Assembly: GCA_026225235.1 (NCBI GenBank) | Contig: JAMFSK010000025.1 | Span: 1-64,000, forward strand | Direction: 5' to 3' | DNA: 64,000 nucleotides | Origin: Burkholderiales bacterium | GTDB taxonomy: Bacteria; Pseudomonadota; Gammaproteobacteria; Burkholderiales; Burkholderiaceae | Shown here: positions 33,528 through 46,103 of the stretch, piece by piece | Numbering within the stretch: position 1 is the first letter of the stretch | How the letters are laid out: every line of letters starts with the position of its first letter | Position numbers and translations under genes: made by a program | Notes under the pieces: model-generated | The model's input: the letters and a program-made list of their open reading frames with translations, nothing else | The model's database searches: none | What the model was told of the DNA's origin: nothing

Positions 33528-33647
33528 GTACTCTCCTTGTGGATATAGCCACCCGAGCGTCGAATTCGGTGTGGCAAGGGGGAAACGCGGGATTCTAGCC
33601 CGATGTGGAGGGCTTGACAAGGACGATCTGGCTTTACCGCCAGGGGA

Positions 33648-34562
33648 TCAGGCCGGTGGCAGGCCGATCGCGGGTCTGGGGGTGAGTTCGGGAGCGGCCG
33701 GCGGCGCGGCGCCCGCCTGGCCATGGTCCCCGGTTTGCGCAACCGATTGCACGGCAAGCGGTTCAGTGAGGGCGCCGGGCCACGCCGCGCGCGGCGGCAA
33801 GGCAGAGGCCGATCCCCCGGCTACCGGCAAGGCGTCGATCGGGGCCCATTCCGGGTCCGGAATCTCGCCGAATACCTGGCGCAGGCGTGCGCCCCAGGTC
33901 GAATGGATCATCTGGAAATACTGATTGTCGTGATCCATCGAGACGAAACGCGTGACCTTCAGCGAATCTTTCTCATACACGAGCAAATCGAGCGGCAGGC
34001 CGACCGACAGGTTCGACCGCAAGGTCGAGTCCATCGATATCAGGGCGCATTTGGCCGCTTCGTCGAGCGGGGTGTCCGGCGTGAGCACCCGGTCGATAAT
34101 CGGCTTGCCGTACTTGGCCTCGCCGATCTGCAGATAGGGATTCACCGACGACGCTTCAATATAGTTGCCGGCTGCGTAGACCTGGAACACGCGCATGCGC
34201 TGCTGGCCGATCTGGCCGCCGATCACGAAGCTGCAATTGAATTCGACGCCGAATTGCTGGAGCGACTCGGCATCGCGCCGATGCACGGCCCGCACCGCAT
34301 CGCCGACCACGCGCGCGGCGTCATGCAGCGTCTCGGCAGTCCACACCGTCGTACCGGGCTCGGTCGGCTCGTTGAGTTCCTGGCAGACCGCCTGAGAAAT
34401 GGCGAGATTGCCGGCTGACATCAGCACCAGCACCCGTTCGCCGGGTTTCTCGAACACCGACATTTTGCGAAACGTGCTGATCTGGTCGACGCCGGCATTG
34501 GTGCGGGTGTCCGACAAAAAGACCAGGCCGTCGTTCACACGCATCGCGACACAGTAAGTCAT
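33648..34562 (-). CDS. Anbu-type proteasome-like peptidase with Pro/Ala-rich C-terminal tail
   Basis: MTYCVAMRVNDGLVFLSDTRTNAGVDQISTFRKM: Thr after initiator Met, Asp17 and Lys32 as proteasome-type catalytic residues. Confidence 0.88.
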   Translation of the reverse strand: MTYCVAMRVNDGLVFLSDTRTNAGVDQISTFRKMSVFEKPGERVLVLMSAGNLAISQAVCQELNEPTEPGTTVWTAETLHDAARVVGDAVRAVHRRDAESLQQFGVEFNCSFVIGGQIGQQRMRVFQVYAAGNYIEASSVNPYLQIGEAKYGKPIIDRVLTPDTPLDEAAKCALISMDSTLRSNLSVGLPLDLLVYEKDSLKVTRFVSMDHDNQYFQMIHSTWGARLRQVFGEIPDPEWAPIDALPVAGGSASALPPRAAWPGALTEPLAVQSVAQTGDHGQAGAAPPAAPELTPRPAIGLPPA

Positions 34563-34711
34563 GTCCTTCGCCTTCTGATTGCTTGACCAAACCCGGCATT
34601 GTAGCCGGGCCGCCCTGTTCTTTATTAAACCGACCTTACGGCGAAAGCAAGGTATGGGTCAACGGGCGCTGAACCCTCCGCCGCGCCGTTCATTGTTGAA
34701 CGGCGTGCGCG

Positions 34712-35512
34712 CTATTGAAGGCCATCCGCATTTACCCTCACGGAGACCTGCAGCTTCTCCTCGCGTCCGCCGATACGTGTGCCGCGCACAGGTGCGGCGG
34801 CCTCGTAGTCGCGGCCGACAGCGACCCGGCAATATTTCTCGCTCGCGAAGTCGCTGCGCGTCACGTCGACGCTGACCCAGCCCAGATCATGCAGCCAGAC
34901 ATCGACCCACGCGTGACTCGCCGTCTGCGGCACTTCACCCGGATCGAGATAGCCGCTCACATAACGCGCCGGTACACCTTGGTTCCGGCAGCAGGCGAGC
35001 ATCAGATGCGCATGATCCTGGCATACGCCCTTGCCCGCTTCGAGCGCATCGCCTGCTGAACTGGTGACATCCGTTGCACCGGGTTGATAGGCGACGCGTT
35101 CGCAGATCGCCTCCGCAAGCGCGATCAAGGCCGCCGGTTTGTCGAGTGGCCCCGCCACCACGGCCAGCTCAACGATCGCCGGGTTGACATCGGTGAGCCG
35201 CGTCGCGCACGTGAAATGTTCGAGCGGAATCGCCCCGACGACCTCGCCAAGCTGGCCGTCGTGCAGCGGCACCGTATCGACCTCCCCGCTGACCCGCAGG
35301 CGGATCTCACCGTGGGGCCGGGTCAGCACCAGAGTGTGCAGCGTATTGCCATAGGCATCGACTGCTGCATCGAGCTTGGCCGGCGCATCGATCTGCCATT
35401 GGCGAACGAACTGGGCCGACGCATTGGAGGGCGTCAGCCTCAGCTGCTGAATCGAGTACTGCACCGGGGATTCGTACCGGTACGTCGTGTCGTGATGGAT
35501 CGCCAGGCGCAT
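34712..35512 (-). CDS. transglutaminase-like cysteine protease-fold protein
   Basis: MRLAIHHDTTYRYESPVQYSIQQLRLTP; GVCQDHAHLMLACCRNQGVPARYVSGYL; ASHAWVDVWL. Confidence 0.92.
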   Translation of the reverse strand: MRLAIHHDTTYRYESPVQYSIQQLRLTPSNASAQFVRQWQIDAPAKLDAAVDAYGNTLHTLVLTRPHGEIRLRVSGEVDTVPLHDGQLGEVVGAIPLEHFTCATRLTDVNPAIVELAVVAGPLDKPAALIALAEAICERVAYQPGATDVTSSAGDALEAGKGVCQDHAHLMLACCRNQGVPARYVSGYLDPGEVPQTASHAWVDVWLHDLGWVSVDVTRSDFASEKYCRVAVGRDYEAAAPVRGTRIGGREEKLQVSVRVNADGLQ

Positions 35513-35524
35513 GGCTCGCCTCCG

Positions 35525-36574
35525 TCAATAAACAGGCAGCATCAGGAAGGTCCGCGAGATGGCATTGCCCAACTCGTAGACCCGTGCAAGGAACTGCGTC
35601 AGATAGGCATGCAGGCCTGTTTCAAGAATCTCGTCGATCTCGGCGTAAAGCAGGTCAGAACGCAATTTGCCGGCCGTGCGTTCGCAGGCCCGTGAACCAT
35701 CGGTGCTCAGGAGCGCGAGGTTCCGGCAGACCGCATCCAGCGAGGCGATCAGAGAGCGCGGCATATTCGGGTTCAGCATCAGCAGCTCAATCACGCGTTC
35801 AGGCGTGACGACATCGCGATAGACCTTGCGGTAGATCTCGAGCGCCGACACCGAGCTGAGCACCGATGTCCAGTAATAGAAGTCCTCGAGCTGACCCTCC
35901 TTCGGATCGATCTGGGACTGACTCTGCGACTGGCCACCCTGCGACTGGGACTGCGACTGCGATTGGGATTGCGACTGCAACTGATTCTGGACCGCGGCCT
36001 CGGCGTTTTCAGCGTCGAGAAAACGCACATCCAGAATTCGCGCCGTGTTGTCGGCCCGCTCGAGCACCGTGCCGAGCTGAGTGAAGACGAACGCATCGTC
36101 CTGCAGCGCCGTGCCGAGCGTGACGCCACGCGACAGATGCGAGCGAAACTTGACCCATTCGAACAGCGAATTGGCGTCGTGGGTCAGCTCGCCGGCCTCG
36201 AGTCGTTCGACATAGTCGAGCCACGTGAAGTTGATCGTCTCCCAGGCTTCGGTCGTCAGCACGCCACGGACAGCGCGTGCGTTCTCCCGCGCCGCCTGCA
36301 GGCAGGCATAGATGCTCGACGGGTTGTCGGGCGCGGCAGCCAGGAAGTCGAGCACGTTCTCGCGTGTCGGGCCGCCCTTGTCCGCGTAACGCGCATCGAA
36401 AGCCGGCTCGAGCTCCGAGATCCGCAACACGGCCCGCTGCGCGCGCTCCTCATGCTTGGCGCTCTGCGGCAACAGCAGGGTCTTGAGGTTGATGTCGAGC
36501 ATCCGCGCGGTGTTTTCCGCTCGTTCCATATAGCGCGCCATCCAGAACAGATGGTCGGCGGTGCGGCTTAGCAT
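35525..36574 (-). CDS. alpha-E domain-containing protein with internal Ser-Gln repeat
   Basis: MLSRTADHLFWMARYMERAENTARMLDIN typical of alpha-E (DUF403); SQSQSQSQSQSQ insert. Confidence 0.92.
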   Translation of the reverse strand: MLSRTADHLFWMARYMERAENTARMLDINLKTLLLPQSAKHEERAQRAVLRISELEPAFDARYADKGGPTRENVLDFLAAAPDNPSSIYACLQAARENARAVRGVLTTEAWETINFTWLDYVERLEAGELTHDANSLFEWVKFRSHLSRGVTLGTALQDDAFVFTQLGTVLERADNTARILDVRFLDAENAEAAVQNQLQSQSQSQSQSQSQGGQSQSQSQIDPKEGQLEDFYYWTSVLSSVSALEIYRKVYRDVVTPERVIELLMLNPNMPRSLIASLDAVCRNLALLSTDGSRACERTAGKLRSDLLYAEIDEILETGLHAYLTQFLARVYELGNAISRTFLMLPVY

Positions 36575-36589: not shown

Positions 36590-38005
36590 TTAATCGACCA
36601 TCCAGGTATCTTTGGTCCCGCCGCCCTGCGAGGAATTCACCACCAGTGACCCTTCTTGCAACGCCACACGCGTCAGACCGCCGGCCGCCATCGTCACCGT
36701 CTTGCCCGAGAGCACGAACGGGCGCAAGTCGATGTGGCGCGGCGCGATGCCCGCTTCCACGAAGGTCGGACAGGCAGACAGCGCCAGCGTCGGTTGTGCG
36801 ATGTAGCCCGCGGGGCGTGCCAGCAGCCGCTGCCGGAACGCCTCGATCTCGGCCTTGGTCGAGGCCGGGCCGACCAGCATCCCGTAGCCGCCGGCGCCAT
36901 GGACTTCCTTGACCACCAGGTCGGGCAGATGATCGAGCACGTAGGCCAGATCGTCGCGCTTGCGGCACTGATAGGTCGGCACGTTGTTGAGGATCGGCTT
37001 CTCGCCGAGATAGAACTCGATCATGTCGGGCACGTACGGATAGATCGACTTGTCGTCGGCTACCCCCGTCCCCACCGCGTTGGCCAGTGCAACGCGACCC
37101 GCGCGATAGACCGATAACAACCCCGGTATGCCGAGCGCCGAGTCGCCGCGGAATGCGAGCGGATCGAGAAAATCGTCGTCGAGGCGCCGGTAGATCACAT
37201 CGACCCGCTTCGGCCCCTGCGTGGTCCGCATGAACACCGCATTGTCGTCGACAAAGAGATCCTTGCCTTCAACGAGTTCCACGCCCATCTGCTGGGCCAG
37301 GAAGGTATGTTCGAAGTAAGCAGAGTTGTACATGCCCGGCGTGAGCACGACCACGGTCGGGTCGTCGACGCCCGAGGGCGAGACCGAGCGCAGCGTGTCG
37401 AGCAGCAAGTCCGGGTAGTGGGCGACCGGCGCGATCTTGTTCTGCACGAACAGATCGGGAAAGAGCCGCATCATCATCTTGCGGTTCTCGAGCATGTACG
37501 AGACACCCGAGGGCACCCGCAGGTTGTCCTCGAGCACGTAGAACTCGCCATTGTCGCCGGCCCGCACCACATCGACGCCGGCAATGTGCGCATAGATGTT
37601 GAGCGGCACGTCGACGCCCTGCATCTCGGCCCGATACTGTGCGTTCGTATAAACCTGTTCGGCCGGAATCACGTTGGCCCGCACGATGTTGCGGTCGTGA
37701 TAGACGTCGTGGATGAACATGTTGAGCGCCTTGACGCGCTGCCGCAGCCCTTCCTCGAGCACCGTCCACTCATGCCGCGGGATGATCCGCGGAATCAGGT
37801 CGAACGGAATGAGCCGCTCGGTCCCGGAGTCCGCCCCGTAGACGGCGAACGTGATGCCGACCCGGCGGAACACGAGGTCCGCTTCGGCCCGCTTGCGCGC
37901 CATCGTGGCGTCTGACTGACGTCCGAGCCAGTCATTAAAGCGCTGGTAATGCGGCCTGATCAAGCGAGCCGCGTCGTTCTCATGCATTTCGTCGTAGAAC
38001 CGCAT
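36590..38005 (-). CDS. circularly permuted type 2 ATP-grasp protein
   Basis: MRFYDEMHEND; RVDVIYRRLDDDFLDPLAFR; VVKEVHGAGGYGMLVGP; start trimmed to 38005 with AGGAAGGG upstream. Confidence 0.92.
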   Translation of the reverse strand: MRFYDEMHENDAARLIRPHYQRFNDWLGRQSDATMARKRAEADLVFRRVGITFAVYGADSGTERLIPFDLIPRIIPRHEWTVLEEGLRQRVKALNMFIHDVYHDRNIVRANVIPAEQVYTNAQYRAEMQGVDVPLNIYAHIAGVDVVRAGDNGEFYVLEDNLRVPSGVSYMLENRKMMMRLFPDLFVQNKIAPVAHYPDLLLDTLRSVSPSGVDDPTVVVLTPGMYNSAYFEHTFLAQQMGVELVEGKDLFVDDNAVFMRTTQGPKRVDVIYRRLDDDFLDPLAFRGDSALGIPGLLSVYRAGRVALANAVGTGVADDKSIYPYVPDMIEFYLGEKPILNNVPTYQCRKRDDLAYVLDHLPDLVVKEVHGAGGYGMLVGPASTKAEIEAFRQRLLARPAGYIAQPTLALSACPTFVEAGIAPRHIDLRPFVLSGKTVTMAAGGLTRVALQEGSLVVNSSQGGGTKDTWMVD

Positions 38006-38040
38006 GGATCCCTTCCTGCGCCGTTGCGTACAAGAGAAAA

Positions 38041-38057
38041 AGCAAACCGCGTGCCAA
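38041..38057 (-). promoter_or_regulatory. putative sigma54 (RpoN) promoter for the ATP-grasp/alpha-E/transglutaminase/Anbu operon
   Basis: Minus strand TTGGCACGCGGTTTGCT: GG and GC dinucleotides separated by 10 nt, matching TGGCAC-N5-TTGC[AT]; predicted start about 25 nt before the ATG. Confidence 0.75.
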
Positions 38058-38192
38058 TGGACCAAGCGATGTTTCGGTGCAGCCTATTGTCATGCAACGC
38101 ACCGGAAACGAACAGCCCCTTGCTTATCCAGCACGCGGCGGTGCGCGAAGACTCCTTCAGGTGCGCGAGAGGGCTCGCGCCTTGCTCATGCA

Positions 38193-39248
38193 CTAGAACG
38201 TGTCGAATGCTGCCTGTAACACATCGAACTCCCGCATCCCGGCAGCGAGAGCCAGCATCAGGAGCACGCGCGCCTTGTAAGGCGAGAGTGTCCCGGCGCT
38301 GATAAAACCCAGTCGATCGTCGGCCGCCGAACCGTTGCGCAGGATATGACCCGAGCCCACGCGCGAGGCACGCACCACGATGACGCCTCGCTCGACGGCT
38401 TCTGCGAGCGCGAGTTGCAGATCATGGTGCAGCGAGCCGCTGCCGGTCCCCGCGACGATAATGCCAGCCGCCCCGGCCGCGACGAAGGCATCGACCGGAA
38501 CCCGGGACGCGCCCGCGTAGCTGGTCACGAGGCCGATCATCGGCAAGGGCTCGAGCGCGTCGTGCAGCACCGCGTCTGTCACGGGCGCTGCCGCGCTGCG
38601 AGCGAGGCGGAACGGCGTCGCCACCGTATGGCGGTGCTCGACGCGCCGGCCATATTCAACCCTGCCGTCATGCACCCAGCCGAGCGGCCCTGCCTCCGGC
38701 GAGTCGAACGCATCGATCGAGAACGTGCTGGTCTTGGTGACGTCGCGCGCCGAATGGATCCGGTTGGCGAACGCCACGAGTACGCCCCGCCCGTGCGAGA
38801 CCGGCGCCGCGGCAACGCTCACTGCGTTGAGCAGGTTCATGGGTCCGTCGGCTGACAGCGCGGTCGCCGGGCGCATCGCGGCCGTCAGCACGACCGGTTT
38901 GGCGGACTTCAAAGTCAGATGCAGGAAGTAGGCGGTTTCTTCGAGGGTGTCGGTGCCGTGCGTAATAACCGCCCCGTCGATTTCATCGCTCGCCAGCAGG
39001 CTGTCGAGACGTTTTGAAAGCTGGAGCCAGAGCGCGAGGCTCATATCCTTGCTGTCGATCGAAGCCAGTTGTTCGCCGGCGATGCGGGCAACCGTGCCTA
39101 GGGCGGGCACGGCATCGAGCAATTGCGAGACGGACAAGGCGCCGGCCTGATAGCCGGTCGTCTGCGCGGCAGTCGGGGCCGAGCCGGCGATGGTGCCTCC
39201 CGTGCCGACCACGACCACTCGAGGCAAAGAGGAGGTCTCTGATGTCAT
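38193..39248 (-). CDS. L-asparaginase
   Basis: VVVGTGGTIAGSA; VITHGTDTLEETAYFLHLTLKSAKPVVLTAAMRP. Confidence 0.93.
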   Translation of the reverse strand: MTSETSSLPRVVVVGTGGTIAGSAPTAAQTTGYQAGALSVSQLLDAVPALGTVARIAGEQLASIDSKDMSLALWLQLSKRLDSLLASDEIDGAVITHGTDTLEETAYFLHLTLKSAKPVVLTAAMRPATALSADGPMNLLNAVSVAAAPVSHGRGVLVAFANRIHSARDVTKTSTFSIDAFDSPEAGPLGWVHDGRVEYGRRVEHRHTVATPFRLARSAAAPVTDAVLHDALEPLPMIGLVTSYAGASRVPVDAFVAAGAAGIIVAGTGSGSLHHDLQLALAEAVERGVIVVRASRVGSGHILRNGSAADDRLGFISAGTLSPYKARVLLMLALAAGMREFDVLQAAFDTF

Positions 39249-46086: not shown

Positions 46087-46103
46087 TTGGCACACGCTTT
46101 GCA
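46087..46103 (+). promoter_or_regulatory. putative sigma54 (RpoN) promoter upstream of BMP ABC/hydrolase cluster
   Basis: TTGGCACACGCTTTGCA: GG-N10-GC, matching TGGCAC-N5-TTGC[AT]. Confidence 0.75.

Follow-up and report, generated by a model that had tools for sequence, protein, structure and literature searches.

A conserved sigma54 promoter in front of an ATP-grasp/Anbu operon in a Burkholderiales bacterium, probably controlled by NtrC under nitrogen limitation

The window analysed here, a stretch of 64,000 nucleotides from a Burkholderiales bacterium, carries on its minus strand a four-gene operon that ends with the gene for the bacterial proteasome relative Anbu, and in front of this operon lies a sigma54 promoter that is very probably real and functional. 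NtrC is the likely activator, and the whole statement, that this is an NtrC/sigma54 promoter serving nitrogen limitation, is probable; shortage of nitrogen is the most likely signal for expression of the operon enzymes. A consensus sigma54 promoter had been proposed at this place in a preliminary description, and the proposal was borne out by an exact box and by its conservation. The elements of the promoter are the following.

38042-38056, minus strand: sigma54 -24/-12 box TGGCACGCGGTTTGC, exact consensus, kept in the sister genome and in 77/129 relatives
38030, minus strand: predicted transcription start, reckoned from the -12 GC
38010-38017, minus strand: ribosome binding site AGGAAGGG, assigned by its sequence and largely kept in the sister
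38005-38116, minus strand: promoter block conserved over about 110 bp, with 70-95% identity in the sister alignment versus 25-60% upstream

Read on the minus strand from 38056 to 38042, the box agrees with TGGCAC-N5-TTGC at 10/10 positions and, within TGGCAY-N5-TTGCW, has 10 nt between its GG and its GC, which is the exact GG-N10-GC spacing described before (the minus-strand DNA here reads CATTGGCACGCGGTTTGCTTTTTC and CATTGGCACGCGGTTTGCTTTTTCTCTTGTACGCAACGGCGCAGGAAGGGATCCATG). The -12 GC ends at 38042, and a start reckoned 12 nt after its C would fall at about 38030, the same position as predicted earlier, with a predicted 5′ UTR of about 25 nt. The distance from the box to the ribosome binding site, given as ~25 nt in the preliminary description, was counted as 24 nt, and that to the ATG (38005) as 36 nt.

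The possibility that such a box is a chance match, with transcription of the operon coming from a sigma70 promoter or running on from the asparaginase gene upstream, had to be weighed first. The exact TGGCAC-N5-TTGC motif occurs twice in the window (38056-38042 on the minus strand and 46088-46102 on the plus strand), and the 6.1-Mb genome holds 26 exact matches versus 15 for the reversed pattern, an enrichment of ~1.7-fold that speaks for the chance explanation, as does the result that no terminator was found between the asparaginase gene and the operon. Many of the 26 matches are intragenic, and some precede plausible targets, for example a urtA-like gene and a second rpoN gene. For a single chosen gene, the chance that its upstream 100 bp contain an exact match is about 1e-4, and ~0.7 genes per genome are expected to have one by chance. 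The motif count as the sole proof of a promoter was dropped, given its weak enrichment over the reversed control. The second match in the window, at 46088-46102, sits 120 nt before the gene of a BMP-type ABC substrate-binding protein of 371 aa.

A chance match was rejected because the box is conserved, and not because of the motif alone. The sister genome G002 has the same gene order, with an ATP-grasp protein 94% identical to that of the window, and its box, TGGCATACGGTTTGC, stands at the same 36-nt distance. The alignment of the two spacers is good over the last 110 bp (70-95% identity) and poor above 38116; beyond the genus no promoter DNA homologous over the full length was found, the sister alone giving such a match. 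A motif scan upstream of the operons of relatives, which the preliminary description had named as a check, was made on 129 ATP-grasp genes of more than 55% identity, where a box was counted if it had GG and GC, at least 8/10 consensus positions and a place within 130 bp upstream. It gave a box in 77 of the 129, as compared with 6 for the reversed pattern, 3 on the opposite strand and 0 for the complement, although many of these genomes are related to one another and the counts are not independent. The peak at N10 was sharp, with spacers of N7, N8, N9, N11, N12 and N13 yielding 5, 3, 6, 9, 4 and 3 matches, respectively. Boxes were seen in Paraburkholderia, Comamonadaceae, Rhodocyclales, Cellvibrionaceae and Steroidobacter relatives, and how far they stand from the start codon differs from case to case. 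The 64 distinct box sites vary as sigma54 boxes should; the final position of TGGCAY, for instance, is C as often as T. In 52/129 relatives, including most Oxalobacteraceae and Polynucleobacter, no box of 8/10 was present within 130 bp. With the box kept on the correct strand and at the correct spacing in the sister and in these relatives, and with no sigma70-like site found upstream of the operon when one was sought, a chance match is highly improbable.

The genes that the promoter would serve, and the upstream neighbour, are these.

36590-38005, minus strand: circularly permuted ATP-grasp protein, 471 aa (PF14403, 1.5e-166)
35525-36574, minus strand: Alpha-E protein, 349 aa (PF04168, 1e-89)
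34712-35512, minus strand: transglutaminase-like protein, 266 aa (PF01841/PF08379), with the motif GVCQDHAH
33648-34562, minus strand: Anbu proteasome-type protein, 304 aa (PF00227), with Thr1, Asp17 and Lys32, after a gap of 149 nt
38193-39248, minus strand: asparaginase (PF00710), a neighbour in this genus only and outside the conserved system

The order ATP-grasp, Alpha-E, transglutaminase, Anbu is that of an Anbu operon, and the Anbu catalytic residues (Thr1, Asp17, Lys32/33) are present in MTYCVAMRVNDGLVFLSDTRTNAGVDQISTFRK. Upstream on the same strand follow the asparaginase and a LysR-type regulator. The preliminary description had read the asparaginase as part of a nitrogen theme, a claim that did not hold: the gene (ASPARAGINASE) adjoins the operon in the window and in G002 only, is absent beside roughly 100 other operons examined, and leaves 136 nt between its end and the box. 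It thus appears to be a genus-specific neighbour, offering no evidence for the function of the operon. A sigma70-like promoter (TTGTCA-N17-TAGAAT, 33592-33620, minus strand) lies just after Anbu and is probably for rpsF.

Some variation was observed within the operon itself. The Alpha-E protein (35525-36574) carries a QSQSQSQ repeat insert, and the sister has a different Q/A-rich insert in the same place. The sister transglutaminase (L159:6005-6820) reads GVSQDHAH versus GVCQDHAH in the window, with Ser for the presumed catalytic Cys, and the same Cys is missing in Caballeronia (L008, L009), in L128-L130 and in the Burkholderia DUF2126-operon copies L140 and L141. Of the translated stretches of relatives, L140 was used and L030 left out. 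In L008, L009 and L128-L130 the Cys-less transglutaminase goes together with a weak or absent box (e.g., TGGCGCACGTCCCGC), a hint that the sigma54 box and the transglutaminase Cys may decay together. In G001, of the same genus, the operon is seemingly missing (L110), a 27-residue match being the sole find.

NtrC as the likely activator is supported by the relatives. Among the 80 box-bearing relatives with enough upstream DNA, 44 have the NtrC palindrome TGCACC-N5-GGTGCA with at least 10/12 matching positions, whereas other palindrome spacers from 0 to 13 were found in 1-8 of the same promoters; exact NtrC half sites in the relatives' promoters numbered 81 versus 1 for a reversed control. In the window promoter no full palindrome was found (strict consensus search, p 0.42), and its best NtrC-like sites, scored with the relatives' profile, reached p values of 0.05-0.15 (per site, for a 166-bp stretch). 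Two of them are kept in the sister.

38065-38081, minus strand: weak NtrC-like site TGCACCGAAACATCGCT, strong in its left half only (6.2 bits, p 0.146; identical in the sister)
38098-38114, minus strand: weak NtrC-like site TGTTCGTTTCCGGTGCG, strong in its right half only (7.0 bits, p 0.089; 7.6 bits in the sister)

The conserved pair is unusually close to the sigma54 box, and its members are centred 33 bp apart (38106 and 38073), similar to the 32-bp spacing of the strong NtrC sites at E. coli glnA. When the same profile was applied to the bacterium's own genome, the glnA promoter scored 10.2 bits and the urtA-like promoter gave nothing; the weak scores at the window promoter therefore leave room for NtrC. 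The genome encodes two RpoN proteins, both above the family cut-off, and a gene beside glnA is NtrC-like (the best match to the NtrC model, with 430 bits over model positions 1-263, against a cut-off of 558.6 bits, the gene being cut by the contig end). The second rpoN (L167, L090; contig C62 of the same genome) is itself preceded by an exact sigma54 box, at 42 nt from its start, and this contig is rich in enhancer-binding proteins.

Since the window holds only weak NtrC-like sites, its activator is one that we infer, and the sigma54 promoter could instead be served by another enhancer-binding protein and hence answer to another signal. About 18 proteins of the genome match the NtrC model across its AAA region, a good NtrC palindrome is missing from the window, and a conserved inverted repeat (GTTTCCGGTGC...GCACCGAAAC) could be the site of another regulator. 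A search for the repeat at further promoters of the genome gave 3 matches versus 2 in the control, which lends no support to a recurrent regulator site; as an RNA hairpin the repeat was no better than shuffled sequences (z 0.33). The canonical NtrC palindromes that relatives carry at this promoter, and the NtrC dependence published for a paralogous operon (see below), also argue against a different activator, which is accordingly unlikely.

With NtrC as the activator, the course of events would be that NtrB phosphorylates NtrC under nitrogen limitation, and that NtrC-P binds upstream, most likely at the weak sites centred at 38106 and 38073. From there it would touch sigma54-RNA polymerase bound at the -24/-12 box and open the promoter. 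The transcript from near 38030 would cover the ATP-grasp, Alpha-E and transglutaminase genes and, at least in part, Anbu. ATP-grasp enzymes make amide bonds, and the one encoded here would form an amide or peptide bond, the product then being processed by the transglutaminase-fold protein and Anbu as part of the nitrogen economy. A nitrogen-starvation amide or peptide is the likeliest putative product; the preliminary description had suggested that it may be a nitrogen store, a peptide or a scavenging intermediate.

Two paralogous operon types have to be distinguished, the Anbu operon and an ATP-grasp/Alpha-E/transglutaminase/DUF2126 operon. In a B. cenocepacia record, the ATP-grasp protein of the Anbu operon (L182) is 79% identical to that of the window and no box was found upstream; that of the DUF2126 operon (L183) is 59% identical, and there both a box (AGGCACGTTCCTTGC) and an NtrC site (TGCACCGTTGTGGTGCG) are present. 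The DUF2126 operon of the window's own genome also has a box-like sequence (CGGCATAAAGCTTGC, 8/10, L181:567-581), which recurs unchanged in the sister. In this genus both operons are thus boxed, which makes them candidates for joint study. Moreover, a box precedes 26/40 operons without Anbu and 23/51 with it, and so is no rarer in the former. What is new here is that the box is found both where Anbu is present and where it is absent, and on different paralogs of the operon; regulation thus seems to go with the ATP-grasp/Alpha-E core. We tentatively suggest, as an idea with somewhat less than an even chance, that NtrC/sigma54 control belongs to this core and not to Anbu, that the core makes the nitrogen-starvation amide or peptide, and that Anbu is an optional processing enzyme. 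The box would then follow the core across Beta- and some Gammaproteobacteria, the partner being Anbu, a DUF2126 amidoligase or neither, and the boxed paralog would vary by lineage.

Whether Anbu belongs to the regulated unit was considered separately. In the window (34600-34711), the 149-nt gap between the transglutaminase and Anbu genes contains a stable hairpin around CGCCGTTCA-ACAA-TGAACGGCG (RNA fold z -2.1), which could separate Anbu expression. The promoter might then be real and in effect serve the ATP-grasp, Alpha-E and transglutaminase genes only, with Anbu outside the nitrogen response; this is compatible with most of the preferred explanation and differs from it on Anbu. The frequency of the box in operons without Anbu is in its favour, and so are RNA-seq data from P. 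putida, in which PP_2686-2688 were up 11-15 fold, with the operon assigned to NtrB/NtrC, and PP_2685 (Anbu) was barely induced (PMC7801951). Against it stand the conserved gene order and the earlier P. putida work as cited in two structural papers (PMC5666114, PMC6376114), according to which Anbu itself is upregulated under nitrogen limitation or nitrogen starvation. A separately expressed Anbu is less likely than not, and transcription from the sigma54 promoter would at least partly serve its gene.

P. putida PP_2685-PP_2688 comprises the same four families as the window operon and is induced by nitrogen limitation; it differs in that this host belongs to a different order of proteobacteria and that Anbu was not induced in one data set. 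In the rpoN mutant PP_2686-2688 were still up 14-20 fold (Anbu 1.1 fold), and this is the chief finding in the literature that speaks against a dependence on sigma54; the urtA/urt genes, also assigned to NtrB/NtrC, behaved like PP_2686-2688 in this mutant (PMC7801951), so this data set is weak and was given limited weight. In B. cenocepacia, I35_5080-83 (BCAM1233-1236) was assigned to the regulon shared by NtrC and sigma54, its expression in the ntrC mutant changing by -6 to -9.4 log2 units (PMC5491218). Its ATP-grasp, Alpha-E and transglutaminase genes are like those of the window, whereas the fourth gene encodes the DUF2126 amidoligase, a large transglutaminase protein, in place of Anbu. The published dependence therefore concerns the paralog, and the sequence of L183, equated with I35_5080-83 by gene layout and not by locus tag, agrees with it. 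A 2025 survey listed COG3484 (proteasome-type protease) among sigma54-associated groups in the alpha, beta and gamma classes (PMC12316311), at survey level; its main text does not describe individual sites for this operon or lineage. In structural work on Yersinia Anbu, the ATP-grasp protein released phosphate from ATP, peptidase activity of Anbu was not found, and none of the operon proteins proved to be a stable partner (PMC6376114). The conserved NtrC/sigma54 control points to nitrogen limitation as the condition under which to look for the substrates of Anbu and its ATP-grasp partner. The link to nitrogen made in the preliminary description is thus upheld by the conserved boxes, the relatives' NtrC palindromes and both published cases: nitrogen induction has already been reported for such operons in Pseudomonas and for a Burkholderia paralog, and the window promoter fits with them.
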